IMG/VR virus record: IMGVR_UViG_3300044825_000621
Span: 1-33,644 of that record
From: a virus
Reading direction: 5' to 3' (one strand)
Length of the DNA: 33,644 nt
Made by a program: the position numbers and the translations under genes. Position 1 is the stretch's first letter. The number at the start of each line of letters is the position of its first letter. Positions 18,684-31,532 of this stretch are shown piece after piece. Below the pieces are notes generated by a model that worked only from the letters and a program-made list of their open reading frames with translations, was not told the DNA's origin and ran no database searches.

Positions 18684-18866
18684 ATGAAAACGACCGAAGA
18701 ATTAAAGGCACGCGCTCGAGGCATCGCCGAATCGCATTTTTACTGCGACGATGAATGCGAAATCCCATGGGAGCCATTCGAGTACCACGACCCGGACGAA
18801 ATCGAAACCGAATGCCAGAACCTAGCCGATTCAATTTTTAATGCCATGCTTTGGGCGCAATCATGA
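18684..18866 (+). CDS. Small acidic protein (60 aa)
   Basis: The protein has 60 residues and starts at the ATG of the first leader repeat. It is acidic: MKTTEELKARARGIAESHFY, then CDDECEIPWEPFEYHDPDEI and LADSIFNAMLWAQS. Its strong negative charge could suit DNA mimicry, as in some anti-restriction proteins, but no known family is visible and this is only a possibility. It overlaps the next leader repeat at its stop. Confidence 0.65.
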   Translation: MKTTEELKARARGIAESHFYCDDECEIPWEPFEYHDPDEIETECQNLADSIFNAMLWAQS

Positions 18867-18879
18867 GGAGATCAGACGA

Positions 18880-19068
18880 ATGAAACCCGACCAAGAAATG
18901 AACGAATATATCGCCATCATTATGAGCGCCGAGCTTTTTAAATTCTGCAAAGAACAGAACTTACCATTCTTGCAAGCTTATGAGTTATCCCTGCGCGAAG
19001 ACCTTACGGATTTTCAATTCGGGTATTTGGTCGCGCACGCCCGGACACTTACCGCCCTTGTCAATTAA
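18880..19068 (+). CDS. Small helical protein (62 aa)
   Basis: The protein has 62 residues from the ATG of the second leader repeat; an upstream in-frame reading would overlap the previous gene. Helices include MNEYIAIIMSAELFKFCKEQ and LPFLQAYELSLREDLTDFQF. I do not recognise it. It is bracketed by leader repeats on both sides, which suggests movement as a cassette. Confidence 0.62.
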   Translation: MKPDQEMNEYIAIIMSAELFKFCKEQNLPFLQAYELSLREDLTDFQFGYLVAHARTLTALVN

Positions 19069-19083
19069 GAGGAGATCAGACGA

Positions 19084-19251
19084 ATGAGTCACGCACACCT
19101 GCAACGCTGTTTATATACGCCCGGGTGCCATCGGTGCCAATACACCGTAGTGAAAACGGCGGACGGTGGATTCGCCACCATCTGCCGCCCCTGCTTTCAG
19201 GAATACAAGCGATTACAAGGAGATCAGACGGACAACCCGCGCATGGATTGA
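19084..19251 (+). CDS. Small zinc-binding protein (55 aa) ending opposite the primase gene
   Basis: A short gene read directly: ATG at 19084 after the third leader repeat, TGA at 19249-19251. Cys residues C9, C15, C18 and the CRPC pair at residues 34-37 (TPGCHRCQYT, TICRPCFQEYKR) fit a small zinc knuckle. The last 28 bases overlap the end of the minus-strand primase gene, and the fourth leader repeat lies in its 3' end. The tail (GDQTDNPRMD) may therefore derive from fused flanking DNA. Confidence 0.62.
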   Translation: MSHAHLQRCLYTPGCHRCQYTVVKTADGGFATICRPCFQEYKRLQGDQTDNPRMD

Positions 19252-20054
19252 GTCAGGCTTTGAGTAAACCTGAACAGACCCACACGCCGGTGGTAGTCGT
19301 TGGCATCCTCGCCCACTGTATCGCTGATCCATACAGGCCAGCCTATCTGCGCCGCCGTCTTTTGCCCGGTCTCGCTGGCATCATTGTCAGCGATGACCAG
19401 CCCCGGCTTAAGACTTTCCGCTACCTTCAGCATATTGCCCGCCGAAAAACATACATGCAGAGTGTAGCGCCGCTTCATGGTCTTCAAGGCCAGACGAACG
19501 GAGAGCGCAGTCGCATACCCTTCGCAGAGTATGTGCATCCCCTTGTTGTCGAACGTGAAGGTAGCGCCTGATGTACGCTGCCCGAACAGGAATTTTTTCC
19601 CGCCCTCTGCATCAATCATCTGCACACCGACCAGCGAGCCCGCTACCCTCATCGGCACGAGAAGGACAGGCTTGCCTTCAATGTGCAAGACGTTGCCCTG
19701 CTCATCCGGGAACCCCTTTGCTGCCAGATATGGGTGAGTCATCAGGCCGCTATCGTTCAGCATGCGGACTGCCTTCTGCGTGGCCTCGCGCTGACGCTTA
19801 CGCATCTCCTGCTCTGCGTTGAGAACAGACGAACGGATTTGCCGCTGGTCTAGCTGGTTGGGAGAGTCATGCTTCCATATCGAAACGATGGTGTCGGTGG
19901 CGTGGTTCTGTACGAATCCATGCGTGCCCATGTACTTGACTGCGCCGTTGCGCTTGCGCGGGTGATCCTCTGTTGGGTACCGCTTCCATGTACCGACAGG
20001 CGGGTAGTCATGGATGATGATGCCATGAGAGCGGGCAAAATCTAAGAAGTCCAT
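19224..20054 (-). CDS. Toprim-domain DNA primase-like protein
   Basis: I chose the ATG at 20054, which overlaps the upstream stop as TGATG, giving 276 residues. The N-terminal part has GTWKRYPTEDHPRKRNGAVK and GFVQNHATDTIVSIWK, as in P4-type primase N-terminal domains but without an obvious zinc Cys set. The Toprim domain shows HILCEGYATALSVRLAL (catalytic Glu near residue 178) and GLVIADNDASETGQKTAA (DxD near residues 223-225). It probably makes RNA primers for phage replication. It follows the helicase in the same operon and ends inside the leader repeat. Confidence 0.82.
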   Translation of the reverse strand: MDFLDFARSHGIIIHDYPPVGTWKRYPTEDHPRKRNGAVKYMGTHGFVQNHATDTIVSIWKHDSPNQLDQRQIRSSVLNAEQEMRKRQREATQKAVRMLNDSGLMTHPYLAAKGFPDEQGNVLHIEGKPVLLVPMRVAGSLVGVQMIDAEGGKKFLFGQRTSGATFTFDNKGMHILCEGYATALSVRLALKTMKRRYTLHVCFSAGNMLKVAESLKPGLVIADNDASETGQKTAAQIGWPVWISDTVGEDANDYHRRVGLFRFTQSLTQSMRGLSV

Positions 20055-20215
20055 CACACCTGCCCCCATTGATACAACCACCCATCCCTCGTGCTTTGCA
20101 GCAACAACACTTTGCCCTCTTTAAATGCGCGAAGAAACTGTTTACGCTTGGCTTCGTGTGACCACTTGTACCGATGGACAAAGTACTTGCGACCTTCAAC
20201 TGGTTTTAGTTTCAT
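20054..20215 (-). CDS. Small basic protein (53 aa) coupled to the primase
   Basis: A short gene read directly: ATG at 20215, TGA at 20056-20054. It begins MKLKPVEGRKYFVHRYKWSH and ends VLLLQSTRDGWLYQWGQV, with a basic middle (EAKRKQFLRAFKEGK). ATGA and TGATG overlaps on both sides show coupling in the operon. The family is not recognised. The basic Trp/Tyr-rich composition could fit nucleic-acid binding. Confidence 0.7.
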   Translation of the reverse strand: MKLKPVEGRKYFVHRYKWSHEAKRKQFLRAFKEGKVLLLQSTRDGWLYQWGQV

Positions 20216-20433
20216 GCTTGCCCCCTTGCGCGGATACGGCGAGCCGACACTGGATCCCTAGGCAAACGCTCGTAACCGTTGTATTCCAATACTTCACATA
20301 CCTTCGCGCACTCCTCACGCTCGGCTGCTGCGACTAGGGCGGCGAAGCGTTCAAGTTCTATTTCACAACCTACGATGTCCCATTCAGGCCAGCCAGCCTC
20401 CCGCGCCATATTGATAATGTCATCTGTAGTCAT
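20212..20433 (-). CDS. Small helical protein (MTTDDIINMAREAG type), paralogue of 32819-33082
   Basis: The ATG at 20433 overlaps the helicase stop (ATGA), giving 73 residues and avoiding a 109-base overlap. MTTDDIINMAREAGWPEWDI is followed by IELERFAALVAAAEREECAK and a basic end (PVSARRIRARGQA). The same DD-I-MAREAG and LERFAA-VAAAER segments occur in the plus-strand gene at 32819. These short modules are frequent in phage accessory genes. Function unknown. Confidence 0.72.
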   Translation of the reverse strand: MTTDDIINMAREAGWPEWDIVGCEIELERFAALVAAAEREECAKVCEVLEYNGYERLPRDPVSARRIRARGQA

Positions 20434-21905
20434 CTCTTCCCAATCCTTTTCAAGAATGCGTGCAGCTTTTTGCGGATAAACTTCTTCACCTCTGGCGATG
20501 GCAGCATGACCTGATTGTCGTTCAACCCTCGAGGCCACACGCCAAACTTATCCCGGTAAGTATTCGCAGCGCGACCACTGGACCAGCCCTCATGCCGGAC
20601 GTAGTACTGCATCATCGACCAGAATTCCTGCTTGCTCTCGCGAGTCATGGTTGCCGTTGCTAACTCTTCCATCTTGCCAGCCACCGCACTTACTTTGTTC
20701 TGCCGCTCACGAACGTGCCCGCAGTTGTAGCAGGTATCAGACCCACCGACCCACAGCGCATGGCATGCAGGACACTTTGATTCTTTCTTCTCCCGCTCTG
20801 TTGGTTCCTTCTTTGCCTTCTCTTTGCCTTCGTCAAGCTTGCTTACGCCATCCTCATAGACCTCATCCCAGTCTTCCCGGAACCGCAGGTAGTTGCCGGA
20901 GTGGTCCAGCCACAGCGCAAACTCTTTGTTTTCGCAGCCACGCATGACGCGCCCCATCTGCTGAATGTGAGAGGACAGGGATTTGCTGAATGGCCTAGCT
21001 GATACGCCGATCATTACATCGGGAACGTCGAAGCCCTTCGTCAGGATATCGGTGGCGATCAGACCTTGTATCTCCGTGTCAGGCTTGGAAAAGTCTTCGA
21101 TGATTTTCTTCTTCCACTCTTCGTCATCCTTGTAACTCAGGCTGATGAAGTTGTAGCCATGCTCCTGAAACTTACGGGCGAGATCAGCACCGTGGTCTAC
21201 GCCAGCAGAGAAGACAATCGTCTTGCGTGGTTCACCGAATATCTCATGAGTCTTGGCAACCCACTCGGATACAACGTCACCGGTGATCTTCATGCCTCGA
21301 GTCGTGGCTTCCTGTTGTGACCACTCGCCCGCTACCTTCTTGGCACCGGTCATGTCGATCTCTTTCGCGATGAAGACACGCAGCGGCACCAGCATCTGGC
21401 GCTGCACTAGTTCTTTGGTGGTGACAGGACTGACCACGTTGTCGTAGATCTTGCCGAGCCCTTTGGTAAACGGGGTGGCAGTCAAGCCAACGACCTTCAC
21501 ATCGGGATTGTTCTTGATGAACTCAACCGTCTGCTCCCGCGTAGCGTGGCATTCATCCACGATCAGAAGGTTCAACCCGGGGAAGGCACCGCGGCGCTCG
21601 AGGGTTTGAGCAGAGCAGACCTGAATGTTTTCGTACGGACGATAGCGCCAGTGCCCTGACTGCATCACGCCGTGCTCGATGTTGTACCGCTCCAGCCGCT
21701 TGCTGGTTTGATCGCACAGAACGATACGATCCAGCAGCATTGCAGCCTTGTTGCCTTTGGTTTTGGTGGCAGCCATCAAGGCGATTGCCATCTCTGTTTT
21801 ACCGCTGCCAGTCGGACTGACTAGCACCTGCGCCCGCTTACCTTGTGCGAACCCTGCACGAAGATCGGCGAGCGCCTTCTCCTGATAATCACGAAGACTT
21901 AACAC
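20430..21905 (-). CDS. Superfamily 2 DEAD/DEAH-type helicase
   Basis: The protein has 491 residues from a GTG start. Motifs occur in order: a Q-like start LRDYQEKALADLRAGFAQGK, Walker A SPTGSGKTEMA (residues 30-40), DECH box LLIVDECHA (residues 113-121), GLTATPF (140-146) and motif VI HIQQMGRVMRG (about residue 315). A C-terminal zinc ribbon (CPACHALWV then CYNCGH, about residues 378-396) follows, and the end is basic. It probably unwinds DNA or branched intermediates in phage replication. It is coupled to the small gene downstream. Confidence 0.9.
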   Translation of the reverse strand: MLSLRDYQEKALADLRAGFAQGKRAQVLVSPTGSGKTEMAIALMAATKTKGNKAAMLLDRIVLCDQTSKRLERYNIEHGVMQSGHWRYRPYENIQVCSAQTLERRGAFPGLNLLIVDECHATREQTVEFIKNNPDVKVVGLTATPFTKGLGKIYDNVVSPVTTKELVQRQMLVPLRVFIAKEIDMTGAKKVAGEWSQQEATTRGMKITGDVVSEWVAKTHEIFGEPRKTIVFSAGVDHGADLARKFQEHGYNFISLSYKDDEEWKKKIIEDFSKPDTEIQGLIATDILTKGFDVPDVMIGVSARPFSKSLSSHIQQMGRVMRGCENKEFALWLDHSGNYLRFREDWDEVYEDGVSKLDEGKEKAKKEPTEREKKESKCPACHALWVGGSDTCYNCGHVRERQNKVSAVAGKMEELATATMTRESKQEFWSMMQYYVRHEGWSSGRAANTYRDKFGVWPRGLNDNQVMLPSPEVKKFIRKKLHAFLKRIGKR

Positions 21906-21954: not shown

Positions 21955-22776
21955 TCACTTTTCTTCTAGCTTCTTGAGCTTCTTCTGAAGCATAGCCACC
22001 TGTTTCATAAGCTGGGCGTTTTCAGATTGGAAGGTGTCGCGTGAATGCTTGACCGCAGCAAGTTCAATCTCGAGCAGACGAATCTGTGCACGCAAATCCT
22101 TGATGGTGGACTCTGCCATCTGCTTTTCAATCTCATCAGCGTCCATCGTGGCAACGGCAAGCCTGTCGGACAGCGCCTCATTCTCAGCCTTGAGCAGGGT
22201 AATAGCCTCAGCCATCTGCTGTTCCGGCGTTTCCTCAAAAGGCCAGTCTTCAACGGGCTCCTCTTGCTTCGGCTCGTCCTGCTTCTTGTCTTTGGTCTTC
22301 ATGACATGGGTCTTGCCGCCACGCTCAAACTTGATGGAGTCATTGCCTATGCCCAGTTCCCGGCGGATGTTGGCGACCAGCACATGACTAACGTGACAGT
22401 GCTTGGCTATCTCACGGTCAGACCACTCAGACCATTCGATATCTTGGAGCATGCGAATAACTACGTTGCGCTTGTCTGCATTGGTACGCTGCAAACCATG
22501 ATCACCGTTCGCGCCGTTGGAGTAGAGCACCGCATCACGGAGAGTGCCGTTGATAATGTGGCAGTCGATGTTGGGAGAGCCCGCCGCTTTGGTTGCGAGG
22601 TAGCGGTGGAATCCATCGGCAAGGTAGTACTGGAGGCCGTCATGGAATACGATGACCTTTGGGAATACAACGGAGTTTTTAATCGCCTCGCAGTATTGTC
22701 CAACCACTTGATCGTCAATCTTGGTACGTGATTGCGTACCACAATCGATTCTAATTTTGTCTAAGCTGAGATTCAT
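21955..22776 (-). CDS. ParB/Srx-fold DNA-binding protein with coiled-coil tail
   Basis: The protein has 273 residues. The N-terminus (residues 1-90) is a ParB/Srx domain, with VFPKVIVFHDGLQYYLADGF and HRYLATKAAG in place of the GERR box. An HTH-like segment follows (SEWSDREIAKHCHVSHVLVA, about residues 115-137). The last 100 residues are a Lys/Glu/Gln coiled coil, beginning around AITLLKAENEALSDRLAVAT. It may act as a transcription or partition regulator or bind a replication site. It lies between the 38-aa membrane peptide gene and the helicase. Confidence 0.82.
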   Translation of the reverse strand: MNLSLDKIRIDCGTQSRTKIDDQVVGQYCEAIKNSVVFPKVIVFHDGLQYYLADGFHRYLATKAAGSPNIDCHIINGTLRDAVLYSNGANGDHGLQRTNADKRNVVIRMLQDIEWSEWSDREIAKHCHVSHVLVANIRRELGIGNDSIKFERGGKTHVMKTKDKKQDEPKQEEPVEDWPFEETPEQQMAEAITLLKAENEALSDRLAVATMDADEIEKQMAESTIKDLRAQIRLLEIELAAVKHSRDTFQSENAQLMKQVAMLQKKLKKLEEK

Positions 22777-23093: not shown

Positions 23094-23512
23094 TTCACTC
23101 TCCTTAGTTTTATTTTTGATTTAGTAACGTGCCACTGGTTGTTGGTGTGTTGCCGTTCAAGGTTATGACCAAGGATATCCATACGCCCATGATCATGGGT
23201 TACTTGCCGCCTTAGTCTCCTGCGCTCGTTGTCGATCTTCCTGTCTTGCTGACACTCGATGTTCTTCATCCAGTCCAGTGTCTTCATGTCCTGCGATGGA
23301 TCGGTGTCCCACAACCTGTCTGCCAGTGGCTTCAAGAAAGTGCCGACGAATACCCTGACTGACATCTTGTTAGCCATGGGCGGCTGCCGCATCAAGTCCT
23401 TATCTGGAGGCGCGATGTTGTAGGGCTTGAGCCAGTAGTACAGGTAGCCGATGGTGATGTCTGACCGGAACCCCTTGATCAGCATGGCATCATAGATCCG
23501 TTGCCTGTCCAT
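23090..23512 (-). CDS. Unknown protein (140 aa) of the replication operon
   Basis: The ATG at 23512 overlaps the previous stop as TGATG and is preferred to a start 26 codons earlier. The product begins MDRQRIYDAMLIKGFRSDIT and continues IGYLYYWLKPYNIAPPDKDL and NKMSVRVFVGTFLKPLADRL. It ends in a very basic region (DNERRRLRRQVTHDHGRM and later). It resembles a DNA-binding protein in composition, but I cannot name a family. Confidence 0.68.
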   Translation of the reverse strand: MDRQRIYDAMLIKGFRSDITIGYLYYWLKPYNIAPPDKDLMRQPPMANKMSVRVFVGTFLKPLADRLWDTDPSQDMKTLDWMKNIECQQDRKIDNERRRLRRQVTHDHGRMDILGHNLERQHTNNQWHVTKSKIKLRRVK

Positions 23513-23772
23513 CAGTGCATCGTCCCGGCTGCTTCCTTCATGGCCTCCTTGTGCCCACGATACGCAGCCACAGCACCCACGCTGAACCACGCAACAGAAG
23601 TCCGCTCATCCGCCAGATTGGGGGATAGCCCCTCCGACTCAGCGAGCATCACACCTGCCACCTTGGTCAGCGCCATCAGGATAACGAACATATCCTCCCC
23701 ATCCAAGACTGACTCCAGCCGGTCTGACAATTCCATGGCCTCCCTGACCAAGCTCATCACTTCCTTTTCCAT
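23512..23772 (-). CDS. First gene of the replication operon, small helical protein (86 aa)
   Basis: The protein has 86 residues, starting at an ATG after AGGAGG (4 bases apart). It is helical and moderately acidic: MEKEVMSLVREAMELSDRLE, MFVILMALTKVAGVMLAESE and VGAVAAYRGHKEAMKEA. I do not recognise it. As the promoter-proximal gene just below the triple operator, it could be an early regulator, perhaps the ligand of those sites, but no HTH is evident. Confidence 0.65.
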   Translation of the reverse strand: MEKEVMSLVREAMELSDRLESVLDGEDMFVILMALTKVAGVMLAESEGLSPNLADERTSVAWFSVGAVAAYRGHKEAMKEAAGTMH

Positions 23773-23782
23773 ACCACCTCCT

Positions 23783-23836
23783 CTACATATAGTGGATGAT
23801 TCCTCTACATGTAGTAATCATAATCCCTACATATAG
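23783..23836. promoter_or_regulatory. Three phased palindromic operators (22-bp spacing)
   Basis: CTACATATAG at 23783-23792, CTACATGTAG at 23805-23814 and CTACATATAG at 23827-23836 recur every 22 bp. The middle one is a perfect palindrome and the outer ones differ from it at one position. Two helical turns between copies put them on one face of the DNA. They cover the spacer, start site and leader of the replication promoter, a layout typical of a dimeric repressor binding cooperatively. Confidence 0.8.
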
Positions 23837-23845
23837 ATGTGTCAA
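23817..23845 (-). promoter_or_regulatory. Near-consensus sigma70 promoter of the replication operon
   Basis: On the minus strand a perfect -35 TTGACA (23845-23840) and a -10 TATGAT (23822-23817, one mismatch) are 17 bp apart. Transcription would begin near 23810, about 38 bases upstream of the first ATG. One operator lies in the spacer and one over the start site. Confidence 0.82.
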
Positions 23846-23875
23846 CAGGTAGTTCTGGTCTCATCCTACCTATTG
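23843..23875. promoter_or_regulatory. Inverted pair of ACCTRTTG motifs
   Basis: CAACAGGTAG (23843-23852) and CTACCTATTG (23866-23875) form an inverted pair with a 13-bp gap, overlapping the -35 end of the replication promoter. The same TACCTATTG and TACCTGTTG motifs form a direct pair at 25265-25273 and 25282-25290 in the opposite-facing early promoter. This suggests a shared regulator at both promoters. Confidence 0.45.
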
Positions 23876-24172
23876 CATACCCGTGTCTAGGTTCCCCAAG
23901 GGTGATAGCCCAGCCTTTACCCATGCCGTAGGCACAGAGGCGGTGGTATCTCCCTGCCCAACGCCCTGCTACTGGCGCCCAGCAAACCCGTGAGGCAGCG
24001 ATTATCTCGATGGCAGGGTTGTCTCACCACTTGTCCCCACCGTCTTGTGTAGTCCCTCGCTGACAGGCTACGTGGCTCGCAGGGGGGTGAATCCTCGGCC
24101 AGTGTACTCTCTACGGCAGCCCATGCAGGCTCTCTGCTATCGCGGTAGGTGCGGTCAGAGCGCCCAAAGAAA
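23876..24172. other. Gene-free stretch of the central control region
   Basis: There is no coding region with a ribosome site here. The sequence is GC-rich with short inverted repeats such as GTAG...CTAC near 24050 and a CGTCTTG at 24041. CGTCTTG also occurs at 24618, 24718 and 24807. Purpose unknown; it may be part of the same noncoding transcript or a remnant of further repeat modules. Confidence 0.4.
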
Positions 24173-24333
24173 AACCCCAGTACAACTTAGGTGGGGCATG
24201 GCCCGTTGGCATGGGCAACTCAGTCATATCCACGCTAATGGATTTTCCCCTCGTGAGAAGGAAGATATAACTGAACTACACATGCCCCACCTAAACTGAC
24301 TGGGGTTAGTACTCATTAGCGTATATGACAGAG
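24173..24333 (-). ncRNA. Large structured RNA element ending in a U-tract
   Basis: Outer arms AACCCCAGT (24173-24181) and ACTGGGGTT (24299-24307) pair, and AGGTGGGGCATG (24189-24200) pairs with CATGCCCCACCT (24281-24292). Inside, CAGTCATATC (24221-24230) pairs with GATATAACTG (24264-24273) with one mismatch. On the minus strand the stem is followed by TTTTTCTTT, so it can end a transcript. CATTAGCGT near 24314 can instead pair with ACGCTAATG at 24232-24240, giving a competing structure. Strand is inferred from the T-run. Confidence 0.6.
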
Positions 24334-24811: not shown

Positions 24812-24886
24812 TGGTAGCGGGAGCCGGAATCGAACCGACGACCTATGGAATATGAGCCCACCGCGCTACCGCTGCGCCATCCCGCA
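24812..24886 (-). tRNA. tRNA-Met (CAT anticodon), CCA encoded
   Basis: On the minus strand a 75-base cloverleaf is complete. The acceptor stem has six pairs (GCGGGA with TCCCGC) plus a T-T first pair. The D-arm is GCGC-AGCGGTA-GCGC, the anticodon loop CTCATAT gives CAT, and the T-arm GTCGG-TTCGATT-CCGGC has the standard loop. ACCA follows. CAT could read AUG, or AUA if lysidine-modified. The mismatch at the first pair would be compatible with an initiator-like feature, but the anticodon stem lacks the three G-C pairs of initiators. Confidence 0.92.
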
Positions 24887-25232: not shown

Positions 25233-25270
25233 CCTTAATGCAACAGATTGTTCCCCCTTGAATATACCTA

Positions 25271-25299
25271 TTGACACTACCTACCTGTTGTAATAGCAT
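25271..25299 (+). promoter_or_regulatory. Promoter of the rightward early operon
   Basis: A perfect -35 TTGACA (25271-25276) and TAGCAT (25294-25299, four matches) are 17 bp apart. Start would be near 25306, just upstream of the GGGAGG ribosome site of the first gene. The -35 overlaps one TACCTATTG motif, and another (TACCTGTTG) lies in the spacer. Confidence 0.7.
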
Positions 25300-25323
25300 G
25301 CAGATATTGTGAGGGAGGACGCT

Positions 25324-25957: not shown

Positions 25958-26409
25958 TTGCTTTGACCAGAGAGGAAGCGCAGCAGGTGCTGGATGCGTT
26001 GGAGGCAGAACACAGATGGCTAGAATCATTAAACACAGGCAAGACTATGAGAGCAATCGAAACTCTCTGCGCCCGACTCGCGCAGCCTGAACCGGAGCCG
26101 GTGGCAGACAAGTACCTGATGGAAGTTGAATGCACAAAATGCGGCGCAAAGCAGGATGGCATCTTGACCGTCAACGTCCCACCACAGCGCAATGAACCGG
26201 AGCCGATTGCATATAAGGTCAACGATGCTACGGTTTACATTAAGCCGCCAATTTATAACGCCCCACCACAGCGCGAATGGCAGGGGCTGACGGATGAGGA
26301 AATGTTTGACTGTTTAGCACAAACTGACGGCGAAGCAAAACGATTGCCGTTAGGTTTTAAATGGTTTGCTGAAGCCATCGAAGCCAAGCTGAAGGAAAAA
26401 AACATATGA
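25954..26409 (+). CDS. Modular accessory protein with CxxC and GLTDEE...KEKN module
   Basis: The GTG at 25954 overlaps the previous stop as GTGA, giving 151 residues. Residues 2-20 (IALTREEAQQVLDALEAE) match the preceding gene. AIETLCARLAQPEPEPVA follows, then VECTKCGAK (a CxxC pair). A C-terminal module, EWQGLTDEEMFDCLAQTDGE plus AEAIEAKLKEKN, closes it. The last module recurs in the genes at 30585 and 33079. The protein is assembled from exchangeable short modules; the function is unknown. Confidence 0.75.
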   Translation: MIALTREEAQQVLDALEAEHRWLESLNTGKTMRAIETLCARLAQPEPEPVADKYLMEVECTKCGAKQDGILTVNVPPQRNEPEPIAYKVNDATVYIKPPIYNAPPQREWQGLTDEEMFDCLAQTDGEAKRLPLGFKWFAEAIEAKLKEKNI

Positions 26410-27293
26410 AGATTACAAATAAGTTCAACATCCCGCAGACCTTTGTCAACGTAGTGAAGCGGCCTCAATACAGCAAGGGTGATGTCAACCTGAGCGTGAC
26501 CGAACTACTGAACTCACCGCGTATCGTGCAGCTACGCAACAAGCATATCGACGAGCTTGAGACGGACGTATCTGAGATGGTCTGGTCTCTATTTGGCACC
26601 GCCGTTCACAACATCCTCGAGCATGGCAAGGATGAGAACCACATCGTAGAAGAGCGCCTGTTCACCCAGTTCGAGGGATGGAAGATCTCTGGTGCTATCG
26701 ACCTGCAAGAAGTCCACTCCGATGGCATCGACATCAAGGACTATAAGGTCACCGGCGCGTGGTCAGTACAGCAGGAGAAGACAGACTGGGTCAACCAGTT
26801 GAACTGCTACGCATGGCTGGTAGAGAAGGTAAAGGGACAGCGCGTCCGCTCTATCCAGATCGTGGGCATCGTTCGGGACTGGAGCCGCCGAGATGCGGAA
26901 GCCAAGGAGACATACCCACAGGCACCCATCGTCACCATAGACATCCCTCTCTGGACATTCGAGCAGCGTGAGGATTACATCCGTAGCCGCTTAGTCCTGC
27001 ACAACGAGGCGCTGTTTAACCGGCAGGTAGATGATGAGCTACCCGCATGCACGCCCGAGGAAATGTGGGAGAAGCCTACCGTCTACGCCGTCAAGAAGAT
27101 CGGCGGTGTACGTGCCAAGACTTTGTTTGGTGAGAAGGATCGAGCAGAGGAAGAACTGGCAACGCTGAATGCCAAGAAGAAGGAGTATGAAATCGAAGTG
27201 CGTGAGGGGGAGCGCACCCGGTGTGAGAAGTTCTGTCAGGTCTCCCAGTTTTGCGATCAACATCAAAGATACATTTCAATGAGGGGGCAGTAA
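26406..27293 (+). CDS. PD-(D/E)XK nuclease, RecB/Cas4-like
   Basis: The protein has 295 residues. SLFGTAVHNILEHG places a His (residue 68) where RecB/Cas4-type nucleases have GTxxH. SGAIDLQ supplies Asp 99, and IDIKDYKVTG supplies the D-x-K pair (residues 112-114); QLNCYAWLVE matches the following Q-helix. A C-terminal Cys group (CEKFCQVSQFC, about residues 272-282) resembles an Fe-S anchor. It is likely a DNA exonuclease that works with the ERF annealing protein downstream. It overlaps the previous stop (ATGA). Confidence 0.85.
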   Translation: MKITNKFNIPQTFVNVVKRPQYSKGDVNLSVTELLNSPRIVQLRNKHIDELETDVSEMVWSLFGTAVHNILEHGKDENHIVEERLFTQFEGWKISGAIDLQEVHSDGIDIKDYKVTGAWSVQQEKTDWVNQLNCYAWLVEKVKGQRVRSIQIVGIVRDWSRRDAEAKETYPQAPIVTIDIPLWTFEQREDYIRSRLVLHNEALFNRQVDDELPACTPEEMWEKPTVYAVKKIGGVRAKTLFGEKDRAEEELATLNAKKKEYEIEVREGERTRCEKFCQVSQFCDQHQRYISMRGQ

Positions 27294-28411: not shown

Positions 28412-28645
28412 ATGGAAATCCGAATCATCATCGAGAACGCTACACCAGCCGTTATCCAAGCACTAGCCAGCCTGTCTGCACCCAAGGCGGTGCGGGCTGC
28501 TGACGTGCCGCCTAAGCGTGGTCATCGTTGGTCTCGCAAGGCGAAGATGAACCTAAGACTTCGTACTCCAGAAGCACCGTACGGACTCAAGAAAGATGGA
28601 ACCCCCCGCGCCAAGCCCGGCGTACCTAAAAAGGTGACTACATGA
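28412..28645 (+). CDS. Small basic protein (77 aa)
   Basis: The ATG at 28412 follows AGGAGGGG, giving 77 residues. MEIRIIIENATPAVIQALAS forms a short beta-helix start. A basic Arg/Lys/Pro-rich half follows (VPPKRGHRWSRKAKMNLRLR and GTPRAKPGVPKKVTT). It is probably DNA- or RNA-binding; no known family is recognised. Its stop overlaps the ERF start (ATGA). Confidence 0.68.
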   Translation: MEIRIIIENATPAVIQALASLSAPKAVRAADVPPKRGHRWSRKAKMNLRLRTPEAPYGLKKDGTPRAKPGVPKKVTT

Positions 28646-29358
28646 AAAACATAGCAGCAGCACTGGTTAAAGCGCAGCGAGAGTTTGGTCCTGCGCTCAA
28701 GACCAGCAACAACCCACACTTCCGCACCAAGTATGCAGACCTGTCTGCGTGCATCGAGGCGGTGATTGATGGGCTAAACAACAACGGCATCTACTTGATG
28801 CAGTTGAATGAAGAGCGTGCCGGTGGTGTGTGTATCCAGACCGTGTTCATCCACGAGTCTGGAGAACAGCTTACCGCTGGTTCTTTATTCGTCCCGGCAG
28901 CCAAGCAAGATCCGCAAGGCTACGGTAGTGCTTTGACCTACGCTCGCAGGTATAGCCTGATGGCTGCTTGCGGCATTGCTCCAGAGGATGATGATGCCAA
29001 CTCCGCTAAAGCTCCTGTTGCTAGACCTGCGGTGGCACCTGCGCCAAAGCCTGCGACTACTCCGAAGCTTGAAGCGCCACCTGTTGTACCTCCTAAGATG
29101 GAAGGGAAGGATGCACAGTGGCAGCTTAAAGTTTCAGCGGAGCCCGATACGGAATGGGGAGACTGGCTCAAAACTGTAGTAGACCTGACTGTGTTTGCCC
29201 TCGAGGCCGCGCAGACTAAGGCAGATGTAATGACCATCTTCCGCACCAACCGGATTATCTATGACCGCATTCAGGCACAGGACGTAGATGCGTACACAGA
29301 ACTGACCGCAACATTCAAGCATTTCAAGGAGCAGTTTAATGAACAAGTATCCGAATAG
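28642..29358 (+). CDS. erf: ERF-family single-strand annealing protein
   Basis: The protein has 238 residues. The first half matches ERF: IAAALVKAQREFGPALKTSN, HFRTKYADLSACIEAVIDGL, the strand GVCIQTVFIHESGEQLTAGS, and GYGSALTYARRYSLMAACG followed by EDDDAN. A Pro/Ala-rich linker (about residues 125-155) leads to a helical C-terminal region. ERF proteins anneal complementary DNA strands in phage recombination and circularisation. Neighbours include a PD-(D/E)XK nuclease and an SSB-like gene, giving a complete annealing set. Confidence 0.9.
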   Translation: MKNIAAALVKAQREFGPALKTSNNPHFRTKYADLSACIEAVIDGLNNNGIYLMQLNEERAGGVCIQTVFIHESGEQLTAGSLFVPAAKQDPQGYGSALTYARRYSLMAACGIAPEDDDANSAKAPVARPAVAPAPKPATTPKLEAPPVVPPKMEGKDAQWQLKVSAEPDTEWGDWLKTVVDLTVFALEAAQTKADVMTIFRTNRIIYDRIQAQDVDAYTELTATFKHFKEQFNEQVSE

Positions 29359-30588: not shown

Positions 30589-30857
30589 CCGACCAAGAAC
30601 TGCAAGACTTCATTGAACATGGTGAGAATGGCTTTGTTGAATTCGCCATGGTGTTTGGTGAAGGCTGGGCAAAACACGCTATTGATATTGCAAAAGAACT
30701 CCGCGCTCGACTTGCGCAACCTAAACGCAAATGGAAAGGGCTGACACGCAAAGAACGCAGTGAATTGTGGTGGTCAATCGATATGGGTGGAATGCCAGAA
30801 CATGATTATGGCAAAGCCATCGAAGCTATGTTGAGGGAAAAAAATGCAGACAAGTAA
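30585..30857 (+). CDS. Modular accessory protein with GLT...REKN module
   Basis: The GTG at 30585 overlaps the previous stop, giving 90 residues. MTDQELQDFIEHGENGFVEF and AKHAIDIAKELRARLAQPKR precede WKGLTRKERSELWWSIDMGG and GKAIEAMLREKN. The RARLAQP and GLT-KEKN modules are shared with the genes at 25954 and 33079. Function unknown; it is one of a set of recombining small proteins. Confidence 0.72.
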   Translation: MTDQELQDFIEHGENGFVEFAMVFGEGWAKHAIDIAKELRARLAQPKRKWKGLTRKERSELWWSIDMGGMPEHDYGKAIEAMLREKNADK

Positions 30858-31266
30858 CTTTGAAGCCGTCAAGGTTGCGCTTAAGCAAGACAAGACTGGC
30901 TATATCTTAACTATGTGTATCCACCCCAACGAGATACCAGATGAGCTTCTGCGTGACTTCGTGGGTGCCCGCTATCAGGTGGTGATGGTGCGCCTGACCG
31001 AGGACGAGATGCCTATGAACCGTGAGCAGGAGTTCGGCAAAGACTCAGTCAGAACTGCGGCAATGCTGTGCCGGGACAAAACCTTCTGGCGGTTCCTGAA
31101 AGAAGCAGGCCAGATCTTTGAGGCTTCAGAGGAAGAAGCCACCGACTGGTTGAAGCATGAGCTAGGCGTACCCAGCCGGGCAGATATACCTAAGAGCCAG
31201 ATTGCAGTAAACCGACTTATCTCAATACGACAGGAGTTTAATTTATGGAAACAAGTAAACGATTGA
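30844..31266 (+). CDS. Conserved phage protein of the recombination region (140 aa)
   Basis: The protein has 140 residues, starting at an ATG inside the end of the previous gene. MQTSNFEAVKVALKQDKTGY, VLTMCIHPNEIPDELLRDF-type text (read ILTMCIHPNEIPDELLRDF), GARYQVVMVRLTEDEMPM and MLCRDKTFWRFLKEAGQIFE form a compact alpha/beta protein. I recognise similar proteins in phage early regions near recombination genes. No function is known to me. Confidence 0.7.
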   Translation: MQTSNFEAVKVALKQDKTGYILTMCIHPNEIPDELLRDFVGARYQVVMVRLTEDEMPMNREQEFGKDSVRTAAMLCRDKTFWRFLKEAGQIFEASEEEATDWLKHELGVPSRADIPKSQIAVNRLISIRQEFNLWKQVND

Positions 31267-31532
31267 TACCTTACTCCGTGCATCTTTCGGAGTCGGTATA
31301 CAACGCGTTGAAGGAGCATGCCAAGGGACGTAAGGCATCCTCGATTGTGCGTGACGCTATCACCATGATCCTCGAGGGTGATGATGCGTTCCAGAGTGGG
31401 TACCGCAAGGGACTTCGTGATGCTATGGATGTGATTCACCGCGACCCGTATGCGTCCAGCATCAGCGTGGGTGAGCGCAAGATTGCCGATACTTTGATTG
31501 ACCAGCTTGAGCAAATGGTGACAGCGCCATAA
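31245..31532 (+). CDS. Ribbon-helix-helix DNA-binding protein
   Basis: The protein has 95 residues. LIPYSVHLSESVYNALKEHA, then GRKASSIVRDAITMIL, is a ribbon-helix-helix unit of the CopG/Arc type: strand PYSVHLS, helix one and helix two separated by a Lys-Ala-Ser turn. A helical C-terminal half follows (GYRKGLRDAMDVIHRDP), perhaps for oligomerisation. It may repress a promoter in this phage; RHH proteins often bind short palindromes, so the triple CTACATRTAG operator is one candidate. It overlaps the previous gene by 22 bases. Confidence 0.75.
   Translation: METSKRLIPYSVHLSESVYNALKEHAKGRKASSIVRDAITMILEGDDAFQSGYRKGLRDAMDVIHRDPYASSISVGERKIADTLIDQLEQMVTAP

Follow-up and report, generated by a model that had tools for sequence, protein, structure and literature searches.

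Phage early repressors such as lambda CI/Cro and the RHH proteins Arc/Mnt act at several palindromic sites tiled over an early-gene promoter. RHH proteins bind short palindromes cooperatively, and Ogr/Delta proteins, which are phage zinc-finger regulators, are activators of late genes. In bacteria, NrdR carries a zinc ribbon with two CxxC motifs and a DSR-type base-reading motif, and multiple NrdR boxes overlap the -35/-10 spacer and the start site (PMC9110341, PMC12051234). The published consensus of the NrdR box is acaCwAtATaTwGtg (PMC4009431), and the GC pairs found by mutation to be essential for binding of the Streptomyces coelicolor NrdR are 9 bp apart (PMC9110341). Cellular NrdR needs 14 to 17 or 24 to 27 bp between its 16-bp boxes, i.e., a centre-to-centre distance of ~30 to 33 or 40 to 43 bp; integral turns, about three or four, are required, and binding at other spacings is ~100-fold weaker (PMC12051234).

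The locus described here lies in a 33,644-nucleotide stretch of viral DNA from IMG/VR (hereafter, the window) and shares features with each of these systems. It has several palindromic sites tiled over an early-gene promoter, as in the phage early repressor systems, and the sites have the palindromic core C-w-A-N-A-T-N-T-w-G of bacterial NrdR boxes (Rodionov and Gelfand consensus), placed, like those boxes, over the promoter spacer and the start site. Unlike for the lambda CI/Cro or Arc/Mnt types, the spacing of the sites is not tightly conserved, and the binder that we favour is a zinc ribbon.

Palindromic sites on the early promoters

A predicted promoter of the leftward replication operon (23817-23845, minus strand) consists of TTGACA (23845-23840), a 17-bp spacer, and TATGAT (23822-23817), and leads to the AGGAGGT and ATG of the ORF at 23512-23772. 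Site 1 (23827-23836, minus strand), reading CTACATATAG on the plus strand and CTATATGTAG on the minus strand, lies between the -35 and -10 elements, at a distance of 9 bp from the first base of TTGACA. Site 2 (23805-23814) is the perfect palindrome CTACATGTAG, just downstream of the -10 element and near the expected start. Site 3 (23783-23792, minus strand; again CTACATATAG, or CTATATGTAG on the minus strand) lies between the start site and the Shine-Dalgarno AGGAGGT, which it directly precedes in the minus-strand reading. The start-to-start distances are 22 and 22 bp, and the window has no exact CTANATNTAG match besides these three. These results bear out the earlier note, which had reported three CTACATRTAG sites every 22 bp over TTGACA-N17-TATGAT and had placed them in the spacer, at the start, and downstream. 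When the window was searched for triples of 10-bp palindromes with equal spacing and mutual similarity, this triple was the only one found; a comparable triple was seen in 0/100 dinucleotide shuffles used as the control.

The genes under this promoter, all on the minus strand, include a first gene encoding an 86-aa product with no family match (23512-23772), a ParB-like protein (21955-22776; PHROG 1033), a DNA helicase (20430-21905; PHROG 16), and a DNA primase-like protein (19224-20081; PHROG 2249). In the opposite direction, a promoter of the putative recombination operon (25271-25300, plus strand; TTGACA-N17-TAGCAT) has in the window just one degenerate copy, CTACCTGTTG (25281-25290), again at the +10 offset, whereas in many relatives it has the same operator arrangement as the leftward promoter. 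The rightward early genes encode an exonuclease (26406-27293, plus strand; PHROG 2139), an Erf-like annealing protein (28642-29358, plus strand; PHROG 2324), SSB, HNH, an RHH protein (31245-31532, plus strand), and others. A 140-aa protein with no assigned function (30844-31266, plus strand) overlaps the start codon of the RHH gene, and in one search of the relatives its gene accompanied the RHH gene in every record where the latter was found.

We then compared the sites among relatives. A 58.6-kb IMG/VR contig, G001, contains the window's sequence at 100% identity. In contig L002, whose helicase is ~90% identical, all three sites are kept (CTAGATGTAG, CTACATGTAG, and CTATATGTAG, with a spacing of 23 and 22) and the spacers between them have changed. 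The third site was found only in the window's species and L002. More distant members (helicase, ~70 to 79% identity) have same-core CTANATNTAG sites at a 10-bp offset after the -35 element; most relatives have one or two sites per promoter, and their spacer sequences diverge. Family-wide, the first site is fixed 9 to 10 bp from the -35 element, and the second usually lies 21 to 25 bp further on, mostly 23 to 24. In 43 promoter instances, among them a few chance matches, site 1 keeps its position, and 17 of the 20 exact sites in six long genomes are at early promoters.

A wide first pattern scan gave many chance matches, so a two-site pattern (TTGACA plus two sites) was used. From the DNA alone, this pattern picked out 19 viral contigs, and each of them encodes proteins of the window's phage family; the same scan of bacterial contigs for prophages gave two matches, both unrelated. 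The persistence of the sites and the restriction of the scan matches to one family show that the operator is real, that it is specific to this family, and that its placement follows the geometry of the promoter. The phages concerned are a freshwater family, whose early promoters carry conserved sites of the repressor type, the three in the window among them. The relatives thus support the earlier proposal of a multi-site operator over the replication promoter; loss of the sites with retention of the promoter was looked for in them, and the sites were conserved at the promoter.

Two further expectations of the earlier note held in part. A single DNA face fits the window, where 22 bp corresponds to 2.1 turns, and copies of the sites do recur in related phages, but there the spacing is 21 to 25 bp instead of a strict 22. 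Since it is mostly 23 to 25 bp (2.2 to 2.4 turns), i.e., 70 to 140 degrees away from whole turns, strict same-face phasing is not conserved; the constraint is the promoter position.

The region between the divergent early promoters has other features. Element A (23840-23875, minus strand), a pair of inverted half-sites CAATAGGTAG...CTACCTGTTG(AC) overlapping the -35 element, reads CAAYACATKGTTCCTGT in relatives, where it is found at both early promoters in opposite orientations and at the tRNA/ncRNA promoter. There are about three copies per genome (in the window at 23840-23875, 25241-25275, and 24918), and in the window the two arms have changed together (CAATAGGTAG / CTACCTGTTG); element A is possibly an activator element or a second operator. 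A non-coding block at 23885-24165 (minus-strand sense), with conservation extending to ~24520, is 69 to 85% identical in nucleotide sequence throughout the family, the site-less L268 included. Of the 64 pairs in a consensus fold of 12 sequences, 23 have compensatory changes, and no Rfam family was matched within the block at E <0.2, the only Rfam match being the nearby tRNA; the block is likely a new large structured RNA. A perfect 14-bp inverted repeat around ~80 nt lies at 24187-24294 (single-strand folding z-score, -7.65), and a tRNA-Met (CAT) at 24812-24886 (minus strand) has element A and a terminator-like hairpin with a T-run directly upstream.

An NrdR-like zinc ribbon accompanying the sites

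Site-bearing and site-less genomes were compared for gene content, and this drew attention to a protein of 63 residues from G001, which we call mini-NrdR. Its gene corresponds on G001 to window positions 34740-34931 (plus strand), 1.1 kb past the end of the window, and lies downstream of the known rightward early genes and on their strand. The product scored 35.1 bits against Pfam Zn_ribbon_NrdR (PF22811; cut-off, 27.2), with a second score of 37.8 bits against the same cut-off. Like bacterial NrdR, it is a zinc ribbon with two CxxC motifs; it aligns to residues 1 to 47 of the Escherichia coli NrdR and has the equivalent of the base-reading D15/R17 of that protein in a D-S/T-R motif, with the RRRR motif reduced to R-x-R. 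The nine best PDB matches of its AlphaFold2 model (pLDDT 89) are NrdR structures. The match to TIGR00244 (NrdR) covers only positions 1 to 48 of 147, at 30 bits versus a cut-off of 124.65, and an ATP-cone (PF03477) was found in 0/16 records. Because of these two results, we regard mini-NrdR as NrdR-ribbon-like and not as NrdR. Bacterial NrdR controls ribonucleotide reductase genes; here, the large subunit of that enzyme (PF02867) was found in 0/12 phage records, and the sites are at replication and recombination promoters. Mini-NrdR resembles Ogr/Delta in being a small phage-encoded zinc protein with a proposed role in transcription regulation, but its Ogr_Delta Pfam match reached 13.9 bits versus a cut-off of 26.3, whereas that to Zn_ribbon_NrdR was above the cut-off.

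The phyletic comparison covered 40 records, 18 site-bearing and 22 site-less. Mini-NrdR was present in all 14 records with a site at offset 9 to 11 and in four with an exact site at offset 22, overlapping the -10 element (G016, G017, G019, and G020). With these four, which were classed as site-bearing after the data had been seen, the subtype occurs in 18/18 site-bearing versus 0/22 site-less records. In three site-less genomes (G045, G047, and G049), a ribbon also passes the Pfam cut-off, but it belongs to a different subtype, which has CANLH and lacks the DSR motif. A small zinc protein of this kind, MKCPQCGTW...RRRRYQCANLHRF, NrdR-ribbon-like with CANLH and without the DSR motif, was seen in the site-less L340, L333 (5909-6025), and L336 (4568-4684).

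The exonuclease tree shows one change of state for the ribbon and two for the sites, and the association is essentially a single co-gain, as both appear on the branch after L268. An independent-contrast test of sites against mini-NrdR had only two independent pairs and thus no power, and an 84-aa protein with no assigned function has a phyletic pattern similar to that of mini-NrdR. In L267/G027, the ribbon gene appears broken and the sites remain at both promoters; the mini-NrdR frame of L267 (~18732-19290) is apparently frameshifted, by an assembly error or a recent loss.

A stronger argument than co-occurrence is the independent match of the site core and of the protein family. CTANATNTAG agrees with the NrdR-box core CwAtATaTwG at every strongly conserved core position, and its C1 and G10 are 9 bp apart, as are the essential GC pairs of the S. 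coelicolor boxes. The outer aca/tgt flanks of the NrdR box are not conserved in the family's sites, and their centre-to-centre distance of 21 to 25 bp differs from the ~31 or ~41 bp of bacterial box pairs.

Candidate binders of the sites

The earlier note had read the sites as a phage switch and had named several candidate binders from the window, none of which fared well. The switch reading is not supported either: an integrase (PF00589) was found in 0/12 records and an S24/LexA domain (PF00717) in 0/7, and no LexA-like protein was seen among the ORF translations of the window; no CI/Cro- or LexA-type repressor is common to the site-bearing genomes. Among the viral contigs, the product of the first gene (23512-23772) is confined to the window's species and L002, whereas the operators are widespread; it had no match in the other site-bearing genomes compared, and the first genes differ between relatives. 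An HTH_3 protein, another candidate common binder, is present in some relatives only and absent from the window, G001, G013, and G015. The RHH protein (31245-31532), also proposed in the earlier note, remains a rival. Its dimers could bind each 10-bp palindrome and bridge neighbouring sites, and it is a small protein of DNA-binding type encoded in the rightward early operon and seen in all family records >34 kb searched, with a strand, KRxIPYSVxL, that is invariant apart from one row with KSSR. We nevertheless consider it an unlikely repressor of these promoters, as the RHH gene is found in both branches and is equally conserved, with the same beta-strand, in a large branch without sites, and the NrdR-box match would then be a coincidence. 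Its RHH_1 Pfam match is below the cut-off (14 versus 20.5 bits), and its structure model has a pLDDT of 73, with the N-terminal strand below 50. Residue 13 of the RHH protein (H/Y/N) was no usable guide to the site sequence: the half-sites of genomes with Y13 are for the most part CTAGAT, but H13 is seen in site-bearing and site-less genomes alike, and the distribution tracks the phylogeny.

The match to the cellular consensus (PMC4009431) would also be expected if host NrdR, near-universal in bacteria, bound the boxes and coupled early phage transcription to the host dATP/ATP, with the phage ribbon modulating or antagonising it. Other phages do have canonical box pairs of this kind: a search for ~31-bp spacing at the same promoter found seven contigs of another phage family (L353 to L359) and a 4.7-kb contig, L216, and the NrdR ribbon gene was not detected in these records, some of which are short fragments. 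Their NrdR box pairs, 31 bp apart on a TTGACA promoter, may be under the control of host NrdR. In the window's family, however, the 21- to 25-bp distance conflicts with the ~30 to 33 or 40 to 43 bp required by cellular NrdR (PMC12051234), which makes host NrdR an unlikely binder there. As the 31-bp pairs come without a detectable ribbon of their own and the 21- to 25-bp pairs with one, the contrast suggests host NrdR in the former and the phage-encoded ribbon in the latter. The 22-bp period of the direct repeats and their position next to replication genes would also suit iterons or part of an origin, to which a replication initiator would bind. This we hold to be very improbable, since the sites are tied to the -35/-10 geometry, are present also on the recombination-operon promoter, and number only one or two per promoter in most relatives.

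A putative early-gene shut-off

We therefore favour, with a probability of roughly 0.6, the reading that the sites are NrdR-box-like operators of the phage-encoded mini-NrdR, whose gene, late in the early operon, would serve to shut off early transcription. Host RNA polymerase would open the two divergent early promoters, and the rightward genes would be transcribed as one operon towards the mini-NrdR gene. Because this gene is late in the operon, its product would build up with a delay. Pairs of ribbons may then bind each CTANATNTAG palindrome, covering the -35/-10 spacer and the start region and blocking RNA polymerase, which would shut off the replication promoter and, in many relatives, the operon of mini-NrdR itself. 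Since mini-NrdR has no ATP-cone, dATP/ATP sensing is not expected, and closure would occur regardless of dATP. Searches for an integrase and for an S24 repressor were negative, which favours a temporal switch over one for lysogeny, and the arrangement may act as an early-to-late timer.

In cellular NrdR, the ATP-cone has a role in DNA binding, and a pair of boxes ~3 turns apart is required (PMC12051234, PMC4009431), which speaks against a ribbon acting alone. Our literature search found no report of a phage-encoded NrdR ribbon regulating phage promoters. From the sequence comparisons, the phage has probably turned the host nucleotide-reductase repressor system into its own early-gene switch. 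We put at slightly better than even the fuller scenario, i.e., that a family without a detectable integrase captured the DNA-reading half of host NrdR and rewired its boxes at a shorter, two-turn spacing, giving an ATP-cone-free timer that silences the replication and recombination promoters. Controlled DNA binding by NrdR is taken to depend on the ATP-cone. If our reading is true, this phage family would offer a natural ribbon-only version with its own operators, showing what the ribbon alone can do, in what way the geometry of the oligomer sets the spacing of the boxes, and how a host circuit for nucleotide control is put to new use by phages.
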